DNA from: Gordonibacter massiliensis (ex Traore et al. 2017)
Lineage (GTDB): Bacteria > Actinomycetota > Coriobacteriia > Coriobacteriales > Eggerthellaceae
Assembly (NCBI GenBank): GCA_900170005.1
Contig: LT827128.1
Coordinates: 992,001 to 1,056,000, forward strand
DNA: 64,000 bases
Reading direction: 5' to 3'
Position 1 is the stretch's first letter. Every line of letters starts with the position of its first letter. Under the pieces are notes generated by a model. The model was given only the letters and a program-made list of their open reading frames with translations. It did no database searches and was not told where the DNA came from. The position numbers were made by a program, and so were the translations under genes. Positions 1-47,966 of this stretch are shown here, piece after piece.

Positions 1-74
1 GGTGTTCGCTTTGCTGGCGGATGCCCCGCACCCAACATCGTAGGTCGTACTCTGTTCGGTCCGCCCGCCAAGTT

Positions 75-129
75 GTCATCCTGAGCGGAGGCCGAAGGCC
101 GGAGTCGAAGGATCCCGCGCGGCGCCAGC
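75..129. repeat. Dispersed palindromic repeat, copy 1
   Basis: This copy begins GTCATCCTGAGC and continues through GAGTCGAAGGATCCCGCG to GGCGCCAGC. The same blocks recur near 42437 and 47796. It lies just beyond the 3' end of the first gene. Bases 1-154 hold nothing else I can support. Confidence 0.7.
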
Positions 130-154
130 AGGCCGCCCCTACGAGGGCGCACCG

Positions 155-40571: not shown

Positions 40572-41009
40572 ATGAGCGTGCAGCAGATCAGCGTGTTCCT
40601 GGAAAGCCAGCCCGGGCACCTGCGCCGCGTGCTCGACGCGTTCGAGGACGCGCACGTGAGCGTGCGCGGCTACAGCGCGTCGGACACGGGCGACTACGGC
40701 ATCGTGCGCTTCATCGTGGACGACCCGGCCCGCGCGCTCGAGGTTCTTGGCTCCATGGGAGCGGCGGCCACGGCCACCGACGTGCTGTGCCTGCGCCTGG
40801 ATGACACCCCCGGCGAGCTCGCGCGGGTCATGGGCATCATGGCCGACTGCGACATCAACGTCACCTACAGCTACTCGCTCATCTCCACCTACATCGCGCT
40901 GTCCGTGAAGGACCTGACCCGCGCCGAGGAGCTGCTGGCCGGCGAGCCGGTGGAGCTCATCGGGCAGGACGACCTGGCCCGCCCCCTCGCGTCCGCCGAG
41001 GGGCGGTGA
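40572..41009 (+). CDS. ACT-domain protein (tandem)
   Basis: A 145-residue tandem ACT protein, paralogous to the one at 35504 (shared VFLE, PG-LA-V core). It follows iorB by 3 bases and overlaps the second PaaK gene by four (GTGA). A likely aromatic ligand sensor. Confidence 0.88.
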   Translation: MSVQQISVFLESQPGHLRRVLDAFEDAHVSVRGYSASDTGDYGIVRFIVDDPARALEVLGSMGAAATATDVLCLRLDDTPGELARVMGIMADCDINVTYSYSLISTYIALSVKDLTRAEELLAGEPVELIGQDDLARPLASAEGR

Positions 41010-42379
41010 TCCGCGTGGCCGACATGACCGTGAAGGGCGCGGCGCTCGCCGCCGCGGCGGCCGGGGACTTCTCCGACCTGCCCATCCACAACCCGGCCGT
41101 CGAATGCGCGTCGCGCGAGCGCATCCGCGCCATCCAGCTGGAGAAACTCATCGCGCAGGTCGAGTGGACCTATGCGCGGGTTCCCTGGTACCGCGCGCGC
41201 ATGGACGAGCTCGGCGTGTCGCCGGCGGACATCAAGACCTTGGACGACGTGCGGAAGCTCCCGTTCACGGACAAGTCCGTGCTGCGCGACACCTTCCCCT
41301 ACGGCCTGTTCGCCGTGCCGCTCGACGAGGTGGTGGAGCTGCATGCGTCGTCGGGCACCACCGGCAAGCCCATCGTGGTGGGCTATAACCGCGCCGACAT
41401 GGACATGTGGGCCGACTGCATCATGCGCCTCGTGCAGATGGCGGGCGTCGTGCCCGGCGACCGCGCGCAGATGGCGTTCGGCTACGGCATGTTCACCGGC
41501 GGCTTCGGCCTGCACTACGGGCTGCAGAAGCTGGGATGCATGATGATCCCCGCCGGTTCGGGCAACACCGAGCGGCACATCGCCATGATCGAGGACTACG
41601 GCACCACCGTGCTCATCGCCACGCCCTCCTACGCGCTGCACATGTGCGAGGTGGGGGAGCGGCTGGGCTTCGACTGGGAATCGTCCTCGCTGCGCGTGGG
41701 TTTGTTCGGCGGCGAGCCGTGCCCGCCGGGCCTCAAGGCCGAGATCGAGAGCCGCATGCACATCGTGTGCACCGACAACTACGGCTTGACCGAGGTCATG
41801 GGGCCGGGCGTGTCGGGCGAGTGCCTGGCTGCGCGCGACATGCAGCACATCGCCGAGGACCACTTCCTGTGGGAGGTCGTGGATCCCGAGACGGGCGAGC
41901 CCGTGCCCGACGGGGAGATGGGCGAGCTCGTGCTCACGCCGCTGGGGAAGCAGGCCATCCCCGTGCTGCGCTACCGCACGCACGATCTCACGCGCGTCGT
42001 GTGCGAGCCCTGCGCCTGCGGGCGCACCACGGCGCGCATGCAGAAGGTGCGCGCGCGCTGCGACGACATGCTCATCATTCGCGGCACGAACGTGTTCCCG
42101 AGCCAGGTGGAAGACGTGCTCTCCGGCATCCAGGGCGTCACGCCGCACTACCGCATCGTCGTGGACAACGAGGGCGGGCTCGACCGCATGGTCGTGCACG
42201 TGGAGCTGAAGCCCGAGGCGTTCTCCGACTCCTTCGAGGACATGGAGCGCCTGCGGCGCGCCATCGAGGAGAAGCTCAAGGGCGTGCTTTTGGTGGGCGT
42301 CCGCGTGAAGCTCGTGGAGCCGGGCGGCATCGAGCGCACCACGGGCAAGGCCAAGCATGTCGAGGACTTGCGGAGGTAG
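41006..42379 (+). CDS. paaK: Phenylacetate-CoA ligase (second copy)
   Basis: The 457-residue enzyme is homologous to that at 34196, with ASSGTTGKPIVVGYN, YGLTEVMGPGV and CDDMLIIRGTNVFPSQVE. An N-terminal extension of about 25 residues depends on the start chosen; the GTG at 41006 is coupled to the ACT stop, while GTG 41015 and ATG 41024 are alternatives. It acts in aromatic-acid activation or, run backwards with IorAB, in energy conservation from aromatic amino acids. Confidence 0.92.
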   Translation: MIRVADMTVKGAALAAAAAGDFSDLPIHNPAVECASRERIRAIQLEKLIAQVEWTYARVPWYRARMDELGVSPADIKTLDDVRKLPFTDKSVLRDTFPYGLFAVPLDEVVELHASSGTTGKPIVVGYNRADMDMWADCIMRLVQMAGVVPGDRAQMAFGYGMFTGGFGLHYGLQKLGCMMIPAGSGNTERHIAMIEDYGTTVLIATPSYALHMCEVGERLGFDWESSSLRVGLFGGEPCPPGLKAEIESRMHIVCTDNYGLTEVMGPGVSGECLAARDMQHIAEDHFLWEVVDPETGEPVPDGEMGELVLTPLGKQAIPVLRYRTHDLTRVVCEPCACGRTTARMQKVRARCDDMLIIRGTNVFPSQVEDVLSGIQGVTPHYRIVVDNEGGLDRMVVHVELKPEAFSDSFEDMERLRRAIEEKLKGVLLVGVRVKLVEPGGIERTTGKAKHVEDLRR

Positions 42380-42435: not shown

Positions 42436-42556
42436 TGTCATCCTGAGCGAGCGCAGCGAGTCGAAGGATCCCGTGCGGCGCTAGCTGGAAGCCTCTCGGT
42501 TGCCACCGCACGGGATCCTTCGACTCTGGCGCTACGCGCCTCCGCTCAGGATGACA
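42436..42556. repeat. Dispersed palindromic repeat, copy 2 (inverted pair)
   Basis: Two copies face each other: TGTCATCCTGAGCGAGCG with GAGTCGAAGGATCCCGTG, then CACGGGATCCTTCGACTC ending GCTCAGGATGACA. The transcript can fold into one long hairpin. It lies directly upstream of the GIY-YIG/GluQ-RS gene. The rest of 42380-42615 holds nothing else. Confidence 0.8.
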
Positions 42557-42615
42557 GCACGTGGGCGCATAGAACTACGCTCAGAATGACAGAGGCACGT
42601 GACGTCGGGAAGGGG

Positions 42616-43842
42616 ATGCCCGTGGCCGAGGCAAACGTTTACAGCGTGTACATCATGAGCAACGCCCGCCGCACTGTCTTGTATATCGGAGTGACGAGCG
42701 ATCTTGCCCGACGCGTTGCCGAACATAAATCACATGCGTTCAAGGGCTTCACCGATCGCTACAACGCCACCGAATTAGTGTACTGCGAAAGCTGCGGACG
42801 CATCGAAGACGCCATCGCGCGTGAAAAGCAGCTCAAAGGCTGGAGTCGAAAGAAAAAGGAAGCGCTAGTAGAGCGCCTGAACCCCCAATGGCGCGACCTA
42901 TCTGTCGAAGCGCCCGTCCAAGACCCCGTCGTGGGGCGGTTCGCTCCCTCGCCGACGGGGCGGATGCATGCGGGGAACGTGTTCGCGGCGCTCGTCGCGT
43001 GGCTCGTGGCCAAATCGCAGGGCGGGAGAATCGTGCTGCGGATCGAGGACTTGGACGCGGAGCGCTCGAAGCCGGTGTTCGTCGACGCGGTGCAGCGGGA
43101 CTTCGAGCGGTTGGGACTCACGTGGGACGAGGGGCCGTACTTCCAGCACGACCGCACGGAGGCGTACCGCGCCGCCTTCGACGAGCTGCGCGCCCGGGAC
43201 CTCGTGTACCCCTGCTTCTGCACGCGCGCCGACCTGCATGCGGCCTCGGCTCCTCATCGCGGCGAGAAGCCGGTGTATCCGGGCACCTGCCGCCGCTTGA
43301 GCGATGACGAGCGCGCCGCTCGCGCGCAGGATCGCACCCCGGCGCAGCGACTTGTCGTGCCCGACCGGGACGTCGCCTTCGTCGACCAGGTGCAGGGGCC
43401 TTACGCGCAGAACCTCGGCACGGACTGCGGCGACTTCCTCGTGCGGCGTTCCGACGGAGCCTTCGCCTACCAGCTGGCGGTGGTGGTGGACGATGCCGCG
43501 CAGGGCGTGAACTCGGTGGTGCGCGGCGTCGACCTGCTGTGCTCCACGCCGCAGCAAATCTACCTGCAAGAACTCCTCGGTTTGCCGCATCCGCAGTACG
43601 CGCACGTTCCGCTCGTCGTCGCCGAACGCGACCGGCGCCTCTCGAAGCGCGACCGCGACGCCGCCCTCGACGCGCTGCTCGCCCGCTTCGAAACGCCTGA
43701 AGGGGTCATCGGTCATATCGCCGGCATCACCGGCCTTGCGCCCACCTGCGACCCCGCCACCCCCGAGGAGCTGCTCGAAACCTTCGACTTTGCCGCCTTG
43801 CCGGCGACCTTCGACGATCTCGTGCAGGTTCGCTGGAGGTAG
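42616..43842 (+). CDS. gluQ: GIY-YIG domain fused to glutamyl-Q tRNA(Asp) synthetase
   Basis: A single open frame of 408 codons. Residues about 5-92 form a GIY-YIG nuclease domain of the UPF0213 type (YSVYIMSNARRTVLYIGVTSDL, REKQLKGWSR). From about residue 106 it is a GluQ-RS: GRFAPSPTGRMHAGN (HIGH loop), zinc ligands CFC and GTC, and LSKRDRD (KMSKS loop). GluQ-RS places glutamate on queuosine of tRNA(Asp). The ATG at 42616 abuts GGGAAGGGG; GTG 42622 has better spacing. An internal GTG at 42931 could start the synthetase alone but lacks a ribosome site. GluQ-RS is normally about 300 residues with no such domain. Confidence 0.85.
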   Translation: MPVAEANVYSVYIMSNARRTVLYIGVTSDLARRVAEHKSHAFKGFTDRYNATELVYCESCGRIEDAIAREKQLKGWSRKKKEALVERLNPQWRDLSVEAPVQDPVVGRFAPSPTGRMHAGNVFAALVAWLVAKSQGGRIVLRIEDLDAERSKPVFVDAVQRDFERLGLTWDEGPYFQHDRTEAYRAAFDELRARDLVYPCFCTRADLHAASAPHRGEKPVYPGTCRRLSDDERAARAQDRTPAQRLVVPDRDVAFVDQVQGPYAQNLGTDCGDFLVRRSDGAFAYQLAVVVDDAAQGVNSVVRGVDLLCSTPQQIYLQELLGLPHPQYAHVPLVVAERDRRLSKRDRDAALDALLARFETPEGVIGHIAGITGLAPTCDPATPEELLETFDFAALPATFDDLVQVRWR

Positions 43843-47647: not shown

Positions 47648-47795
47648 GACGGCCTCCTTCTGTCATACGGTCGAATGATTCCGCATGCTACCAGGCTCTC
47701 GCGGCGATCCGGCGGCGGGTGCGACAGTATTAAGGGAGGCTTAAGGTTAAAACCACACGACGGGGAATATCTTAAGAAACGCCCCCGGCCAAGTT

Positions 47796-47954
47796 GTCAT
47801 CCTGAGCATGCAACAGTCCAGTGGACTGTTGCACTCCCGAGCACGCGGAGCGGGCGCAGGGAGGCGTCGCGAAGCGATGAGCGGCGCGAGCCGCCGGAGT
47901 CGAAGTATCCCGCGCGGCGCCAGCTGAAGGCGCCCCGGCTGGTGCCGCGCGGGA
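47796..47954. repeat. Dispersed palindromic repeat, copy 3, with a nested 23-base palindrome
   Basis: Starts GTCATCCTGAGC and includes GAGTCGAAG and CCCGCGCGGCGCCAGC like copy 1. It ends with the inverted TCCCGCGCGGC..GCCGCGCGGGA pair (47908-47954). Between them sits a perfect palindrome, GCAACAGTCCA-G-TGGACTGTTGC at 47810-47832. Bases 47648-47795 hold nothing else. Confidence 0.7.
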
Positions 47955-47966
47955 CGTCGCGGCCGA

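Follow-up and report, generated by a model that had tools for sequence, protein, structure and literature searches.

How does a gene for glutamyl-Q tRNA(Asp) synthetase (GluQRS) come to begin with a GIY-YIG nuclease domain, and is that domain still connected with the palindromic repeat lying directly upstream of it? The question is raised by a locus of Gordonibacter massiliensis, found in a window of 64,000 nucleotides (contig LT827128.1, positions 992,001 to 1,056,000, forward strand) to which the coordinates below refer. With moderate confidence we favour the reading that insertion of a REP-nuclease unit ahead of gluQ was followed by its in-frame capture and its retention, the nuclease being predicted to nick the folded repeat still. 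Three genomes are central to the analysis, namely the own genome (G000), that of a sister species in the same genus (G067) and one from another genus of Eggerthellaceae (G020). Relevant features of the window are as follows.

41006 to 42379, plus strand: PaaK-like phenylacetate-CoA ligase, the 5' neighbour (best model TIGR02155, 510.6 bits, below its cut-off of 646.3)
42436 to 42556, no strand: REPIN-like palindrome pair (TGTCATCCTGAGCG..GTCGAAGGATCCCGTGCGG..loop..inverted copy), from its sequence, fold and counterparts in G067 and G020
42575 to 42592, minus strand: half-repeat remnant (CTACGCTCAGAATGACAG), read by eye, in the interval separating the fused gene from the REPIN
42622 to 43842, plus strand: fused GIY-YIG and GluQRS gene, with GTG 42622 as the likely start and ATG 42616 possible too
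42622 to 42903, plus strand: GIY-YIG domain of a REP-associated clade, from Pfam, conserved residues and dN/dS of 0.05-0.06
42904 to 42930, plus strand: linker, poorly predicted in both structure models, identical in G067
42931 to 43839, plus strand: complete GluQRS catalytic domain with HAGN, RLSKRD and CxC..Y..C motifs
47795 to 47957, plus strand: second, interrupted repeat copy, about 4 kb past the gene end and absent at the matching G067 site
about 74 to 130, plus strand: third, half copy of the repeat

The frame at 42616-43842 (plus strand), read directly, is open throughout and encodes 408 amino acids. Pfam GIY-YIG (PF01541; whole-protein E-value 5.9e-15) covers residues 9-81 with 55.8 bits against a cut-off of 22.6. 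The Pfam catalytic domain of Glu/Gln synthetases covers residues 105-350 (E-value 5.9e-46), and the GluQRS model of NCBIfam, TIGR03838, matches residues 106-376 of the 408 with 316.3 bits (cut-off 276.7). The preliminary description had proposed one uninterrupted frame from a GIY-YIG domain into a complete GluQRS, and this is confirmed, both domains scoring above curated cut-offs. No anticodon-binding or other further domain was found with Pfam and NCBIfam profiles. The protein thus shares with GluQRS (YadB) its complete catalytic domain, its motifs and a score above the curated cut-off, and differs from it by the N-terminal GIY-YIG domain.

In the synthetase half, the HAGN, RLSKRD and cysteine motifs are with few exceptions invariant across 26 aligned rows; we take the first two to be the HIGH- and KMSKS-like motifs and the cysteines to form the zinc site. 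A tgt gene scoring over its cut-off is found in the own genome, and the synthetase half probably charges queuosine in tRNA(Asp). The GIY half retains Y10, Y21, G23, R31, E68 and N87 (numbered from 42622). Y10, Y21, R31, E68 and N87 are present in 79-80 of 80 relatives, and these residues are retained in all three fusions described below; the tyrosines, arginine, glutamate and asparagine are presumably the catalytic residues of the superfamily. Against PHROGs and NCBIfam the GIY half matched no specific family. Both structure models of the fusion are of middling quality, with mean pLDDT of 68.7 and 71.8. The first had 19 GIY-only alignment rows misplaced over the synthetase, and in the second the GIY half was poorly predicted from three alignment rows only.

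The UPF0213-type label given to the domain earlier is imprecise, and membership in UPF0213 proper was rejected. The fusion matches the solved UPF0213 protein 1zg2 with an E-value of 0.0073, whereas a separate UPF0213-like gene of the own genome (G000:C1:1552925) matches solved UPF0213 proteins with 6.5e-23 and is thus far closer to 1zg2; between this gene and the GIY half there is no hit at E 0.001. In searches with the GIY half, members of its clade score at least 98 bits and other GIY groups below 30. The relationship to UPF0213 is one of superfamily, the clade profile matching BH0048 (PDB 1zg2) at E 9.4e-10. Membership in the RAYT family was rejected as well, since the fusion has no Pfam match to HuH/Y1 tyrosine transposases at E 0.01.

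Distribution of the fusion was examined by searching the whole fused protein against 138 genomes of the family. Matches were obtained in 137 of them, some of which look like other synthetases; G031, 72% complete, gave no match. Among the matches listed, those running from GIY-YIG through GluQRS are in G000, G067 (94% identical) and G020 (86%). Other listed gluQ matches begin at query residue 85-106, with the exceptions of G088, G001, G125 and G036 (52-74); the GIY half finds no match in G088, G001 and G036, and a weak one on another contig in G125. One stop codon is read through in five gluQ matches (G001, G003, G036, G092 and G094). With the GIY half alone as query, and its matches listed in full, close matches (at least 98 bits) occur in 10 of 138 genomes and are fused only in the three named; the 11 other close GIY genes of the family are free-standing open frames of 97-187 amino acids. 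Apart from the fused domain, this search found no close GIY of the clade in G000 and G020. In the phylum, a GIY match was obtained in 32 of 396 genomes drawn; the 15 strong matches outside the family (E < 1e-19) lie in frames of 85-215 amino acids, too short for GluQRS. A fusion whose frame is conserved in three genomes is more than chance. An assembly artefact was rejected, because the frame is present in three species, with G000 and G020 being single contigs. The patchy distribution, which takes in two of the five own-genus species and a single one from a different genus, weighs against capture of a unit in an ancestor.

An empty site in related Eggerthellaceae had been suggested as a check, and such sites exist. 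The PaaK-like gene adjoins gluQ in relatives as well, and the distance from its stop to the GluQRS motif is 45-53 nt in G052, G053, G054, G066 and G068, compared with 557 nt in G000 and 601 nt in G067. At the DNA level, 26 bp separate the flanks of the locus in G053, compared with 537 bp in G000. The end of the PaaK-like gene was recognised at 14 of 30 loci examined. The 12 unfused loci among these have a gap of 29-521 nt, the largest being that of G040, which has no GIY match; the gap therefore varies for other reasons too. In G053, gluQ apparently begins GTG GAA GCC, and the junction in G000 reads TCT GTC GAA GCG. From the likeness over these nine bases, gluQ may formerly have started at what is now the point of fusion.

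A free GIY gene in G067 (C9:10681-10950) is the nearest kin of the fused domains and lies between two repeat pairs. The corresponding site in seven relatives searched measures 43-280 bp and holds no GIY gene and, by eye, no such repeat. The earlier proposal that a small mobile unit landed 5' of gluQ is thus supported in part, by the empty sites and by absence of the free unit from seven relatives; active transposition is not supported, as no target duplication was seen at the G067 free-unit site or at the 47795-47957 repeat, divergence of intergenic sequence blurring the breakpoints in both cases.

Both halves are under purifying selection. For the pairs G000/G067, G000/G020 and G067/G020, dN/dS (Nei-Gojobori method, on short sequences) is 0.053, 0.059 and 0.062 in the GIY half and 0.12, 0.14 and 0.18 in the GluQRS half. 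That both halves are kept intact by selection suggests that the nuclease half still has a job. These values bear directly on a passenger reading, in which an insertion left behind a harmless N-terminal extension that has no nuclease role and is tolerated as GluQRS stays functional. Rarity of the fusion (3 of 138 genomes) would fit such a passenger, as would the poorly conserved linker, of which G000 and G020 have two of seven residues in common. It would also agree with a 2006 survey, according to which many GIY-YIG fusions may reflect the ability of the domain to invade new loci (PMC1564403). We nevertheless regard it as rather unlikely, given that dN/dS of the GIY half is below that of the synthetase in all three species pairs and catalytic residues are retained in all three species.

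Phylogenetic trees give a divided picture of the origin. The three fused GIY domains group together, with support of 90/94 in a 14-row tree and SH-aLRT of 94 in a 94-row tree. Independent fusions were consequently rejected as the main reading, which falls short of proving a single origin. In GluQRS trees, the three fused genes do not form one group (p-AU 0.039 for protein and 0.099 for DNA, 20 rows each). Further, dS between G000 and G020 is 1.65 in the GIY half and 0.59 in GluQRS, nearly a threefold difference, for which codon bias (GC3 0.66 versus 0.88), gene conversion or separate origins are possible causes. Conflict in the GluQRS trees and unequal dS both weigh against the favoured reading. 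With two of five own-genus species fused, one fusion followed by losses, or transfer, is a possible origin.

Analysis of the repeat confirmed both parts of the initial observation: a palindrome stands upstream of the fused gene (42436-42556) and a second copy of its family about 4 kb away (47795-47957). As single-stranded DNA, the upstream element is predicted to fold with -52.4 kcal/mol (z -10). Rfam gave only microRNA models below gathering scores, as long hairpins can. Searched with a pattern of the repeat core, the own genome gives 32 exact matches, compared with none when the pattern is reversed as a control, and 22 of 30 further sites read out there are inverted pairs. The repeat lies directly 5' of the fused gene in G000, G067 and G020 alike, with 32, 28 and 82 pattern matches in the respective genomes. 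On the 3' side G000 has no copy, and G067 has a degraded pair after gluQ; the missing downstream repeat in G000, expected of a free unit, weighs against the favoured reading.

In the family as a whole, the pattern is present in 21 of 138 genomes. At least 20 matches are reached in 4 of the 10 genomes with a close GIY versus 0 of the 128 without (Mann-Whitney p 4.5e-6, uncorrected for relatedness). Genomes that have matches and no close GIY, at most 13 in G065, followed by 7 in G053 and 6 in G029, count against capture of a repeat-bound nuclease. The pattern was derived from the own genome and misses variant repeats elsewhere. G127, G073, G074 and G115 have a close GIY yet no pattern match, and their flanks hold variant palindromes.

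The clade of the fused domain was sampled by one scan of genome contigs, in which at least 583 stretches matched, at least 571 of them encoding a relative. The best 80 named loci were taken, of which seven were left out (L169 because its frame is long, the other six because they lie close to the end of a contig) and 73 tested, with 479 positions elsewhere within those 73 loci serving as controls. Of the 73 GIY loci, 36 have an outward YGTCAT tag within 150 nt on both sides and 63 have it on one side or both; for the 479 control positions, the corresponding counts are 5 and 78. Exact inverted repeats of at least 12 nt join the flanks at 25 of 73 loci and at none of the 479 controls. The tag is absent from one or both sides at 37 of 73 loci, which weighs against the favoured reading. 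Smaller sets behave similarly. The 11 free genes of the family have the tag on both sides in 5 cases and on either side in 8, with the inverted repeat in 7; for 13 of 14 GIY loci from the phylum (one at an edge was left out) these numbers are 7, 12 and 6. Weaker GIY relatives, many of UPF0213 look, gave 0, 3 and 4 among 18 loci; this set comprised 28 loci, 10 of them without a tblastn hit, after prior exclusion of two short fragments. Frequent in the clade sets and on both sides in none of the 18 weaker relatives, the tag therefore goes with the clade and not with the whole superfamily. The suspicion that GIY-YIG genes and such repeats may travel together is supported: free relatives are often placed between palindromes, in related genomes and across phyla.

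The arrangement resembles RAYT/REPIN systems: a nuclease gene is flanked by palindromes, and many paired palindromes occur elsewhere in the genome. It differs in having a GIY-YIG fold and the tag YGTCAT, that of RAYT/REPIN being GTAG. Closer in sequence are the CGTC-tagged REPs, according to a 2013 survey (Di Nocera 2013, PMC3733652), where the tag may also be TGTC, stems almost always start with AT and most REPs form head-to-head pairs. The same survey reports no dedicated transposase for them and names S. meliloti, A. lipoferum, N. aromaticivorans and Neisseria as hosts (PMC3733652). The Eggerthellaceae repeat, tagged YGTCAT, shares the CGTC/TGTC tag followed by AT; its stem is longer and imperfect. 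Genes related to our clade are indeed found beside CGTC-type REPs in N. gonorrhoeae, S. meliloti, N. aromaticivorans and A. lipoferum (L230-L233, chosen from 34 matching records of a plasmid collection because these hosts were known from PMC3733652). Their proteins are 47-51% identical to the fused domain, the gonococcal one 51%. The A. lipoferum unit sits between sufB and sufC.

A GIY-YIG family named Ssn reportedly cuts single-stranded DNA at a Neisseria repeat, as described in a 2025 paper, and we assume the gonococcal gene found here to be this Ssn, a site-specific single-stranded nuclease. The REP-associated GIY units are probably the Ssn family. The fused gene fits these units, tagged inverted repeats adjoining it and recurring in the genome. 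It resembles Ssn in being a small GIY-YIG protein tied to a many-copy repeat; Ssn is free-standing in Neisseria, whereas here it is fused to a tRNA enzyme. Among the papers listed in a literature search covering few subscription papers, none dealt with a GIY-YIG/GluQRS fusion or with GIY-YIG genes and REPs, and a text search of PMC12306157 gave no GIY, nuclease or RAYT. We do not claim the link of GIY-YIG genes with CGTC REPs as unpublished; it may have been drawn before.

This setting also bears on a repurposed nuclease, whose GIY half would act on RNA such as queuosine-lacking tRNA(Asp) or mRNA hairpins, a substrate common to it and the synthetase. The fusion partner is a tRNA enzyme, and the 2006 survey records a TrmH-like tRNA methyltransferase as another fusion partner of GIY-YIG and proposes that the domain may have functions on RNA (PMC1564403). 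We consider this very unlikely, as the fused domain shows the same pattern of residues as its free relatives linked to repeats, the repeat adjoins the fused gene in all three genomes, and joint substrate binding is not apparent in the models, whose low quality leaves room for it.

Of the translation starts considered in the preliminary description (42616, 42622 or 42931), 42622 is favoured over 42616 and 42931 appears unlikely. AAGGGG stands six bases 5' of GTG 42622 and G020 has ATG at the matching codon, behind AAGGGGATATCG, so that 42622 is the likelier start. Codon 42931 is GTG in G000 and at the matching position of G020, and GTT in G067, where the fused frame has no ATG, GTG or TTG from codon 56 to codon 116; codon 117 already lies in the RMHAGN motif. 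Synthesis of two separate proteins from the one frame, a GIY protein and a synthetase translated independently from 42931 or from a rare codon, could draw on the GTG shared by G000 and G020 and on a frame of similar kind at L169, which joins GIY to 6-phosphogluconate dehydrogenase and keeps an internal ATG, and is highly improbable in view of the G067 sequence, the absence of a stop codon between the domains in all three species with the fusion, and the lack, by eye, of a ribosome-binding-like stretch 5' of 42931.

In-frame capture of a REP-nuclease unit could have proceeded as follows. In an ancestor, a unit consisting of repeat, GIY-YIG gene and repeat would have entered the gap that separates gluQ from the PaaK-like gene. 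The unit would then have lost its stop codon and the repeat on its 3' side, and gluQ its native start, so that a single in-frame protein resulted. Its GluQRS half would continue to charge queuosine in tRNA(Asp), and the GIY half, by analogy with Ssn, would most likely recognise the YGTCAT-tagged palindrome when it is folded as single-stranded DNA, and nick it. The dispersed repeats would then depend on a nuclease encoded by a housekeeping gene and would spread or persist through it. A host gene would here have taken up a repeat-bound nuclease that is under selection, in genomes where the repeats are still numerous. The question of who moves CGTC REPs could be put to a direct test using this protein and the repeat that belongs to it, and annotators should be aware that this GluQRS gene encodes a possible DNA-cutting enzyme. 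Only tentatively, and with some doubt, do we extend the idea to bacteria at large, where GIY-YIG nucleases would be dedicated to the dispersal of CGTC-type REPs; in this lineage the enzyme would have been domesticated through its fusion with a conserved gene of tRNA modification and would sustain dozens of selfish palindromes. Were such domestication true, the repeats would be sustained from a housekeeping locus that is not easily lost.

Several further arrangements were observed among the loci inspected. In a Draconibacterium MAG (L169, 5986-7797), GIY, a translated REP (..IPAFAGMT..) and 6-phosphogluconate dehydrogenase share one frame, the internal ATG remaining 5' of the dehydrogenase. It is the sole such frame among the 80 named loci, and capture of units at 5' ends of host genes may therefore not be unique. 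Free GIY genes of L041 and L043 (G073 and G074, one genus) apparently follow the same upstream coding sequence, so at least some GIY units seem to be vertically kept. Another group of small GIY genes from the same phylum (L204-L207), to which the four weaker relatives with inverted repeats belong, lies beside different palindromes, of GGTCTCGATACG..CGACCACC type in L204, and is possibly a second repeat-nuclease pairing. A larger inverted repeat (TGTTAAACCAGCATTGACAT..ATGTCAATGCTGGTTTAACA) encloses or adjoins several REPIN-like elements of the own genome, at L065, L066, L072, L074, L086, L087, L089, L091 and L092, and is perhaps a nested mobile element. Finally, loose copies or short runs of the repeat 5' half (TTGTCATCCTGAGCGAGCG and variants) adjoin full pairs at some of L069-L071, L076 and L083.
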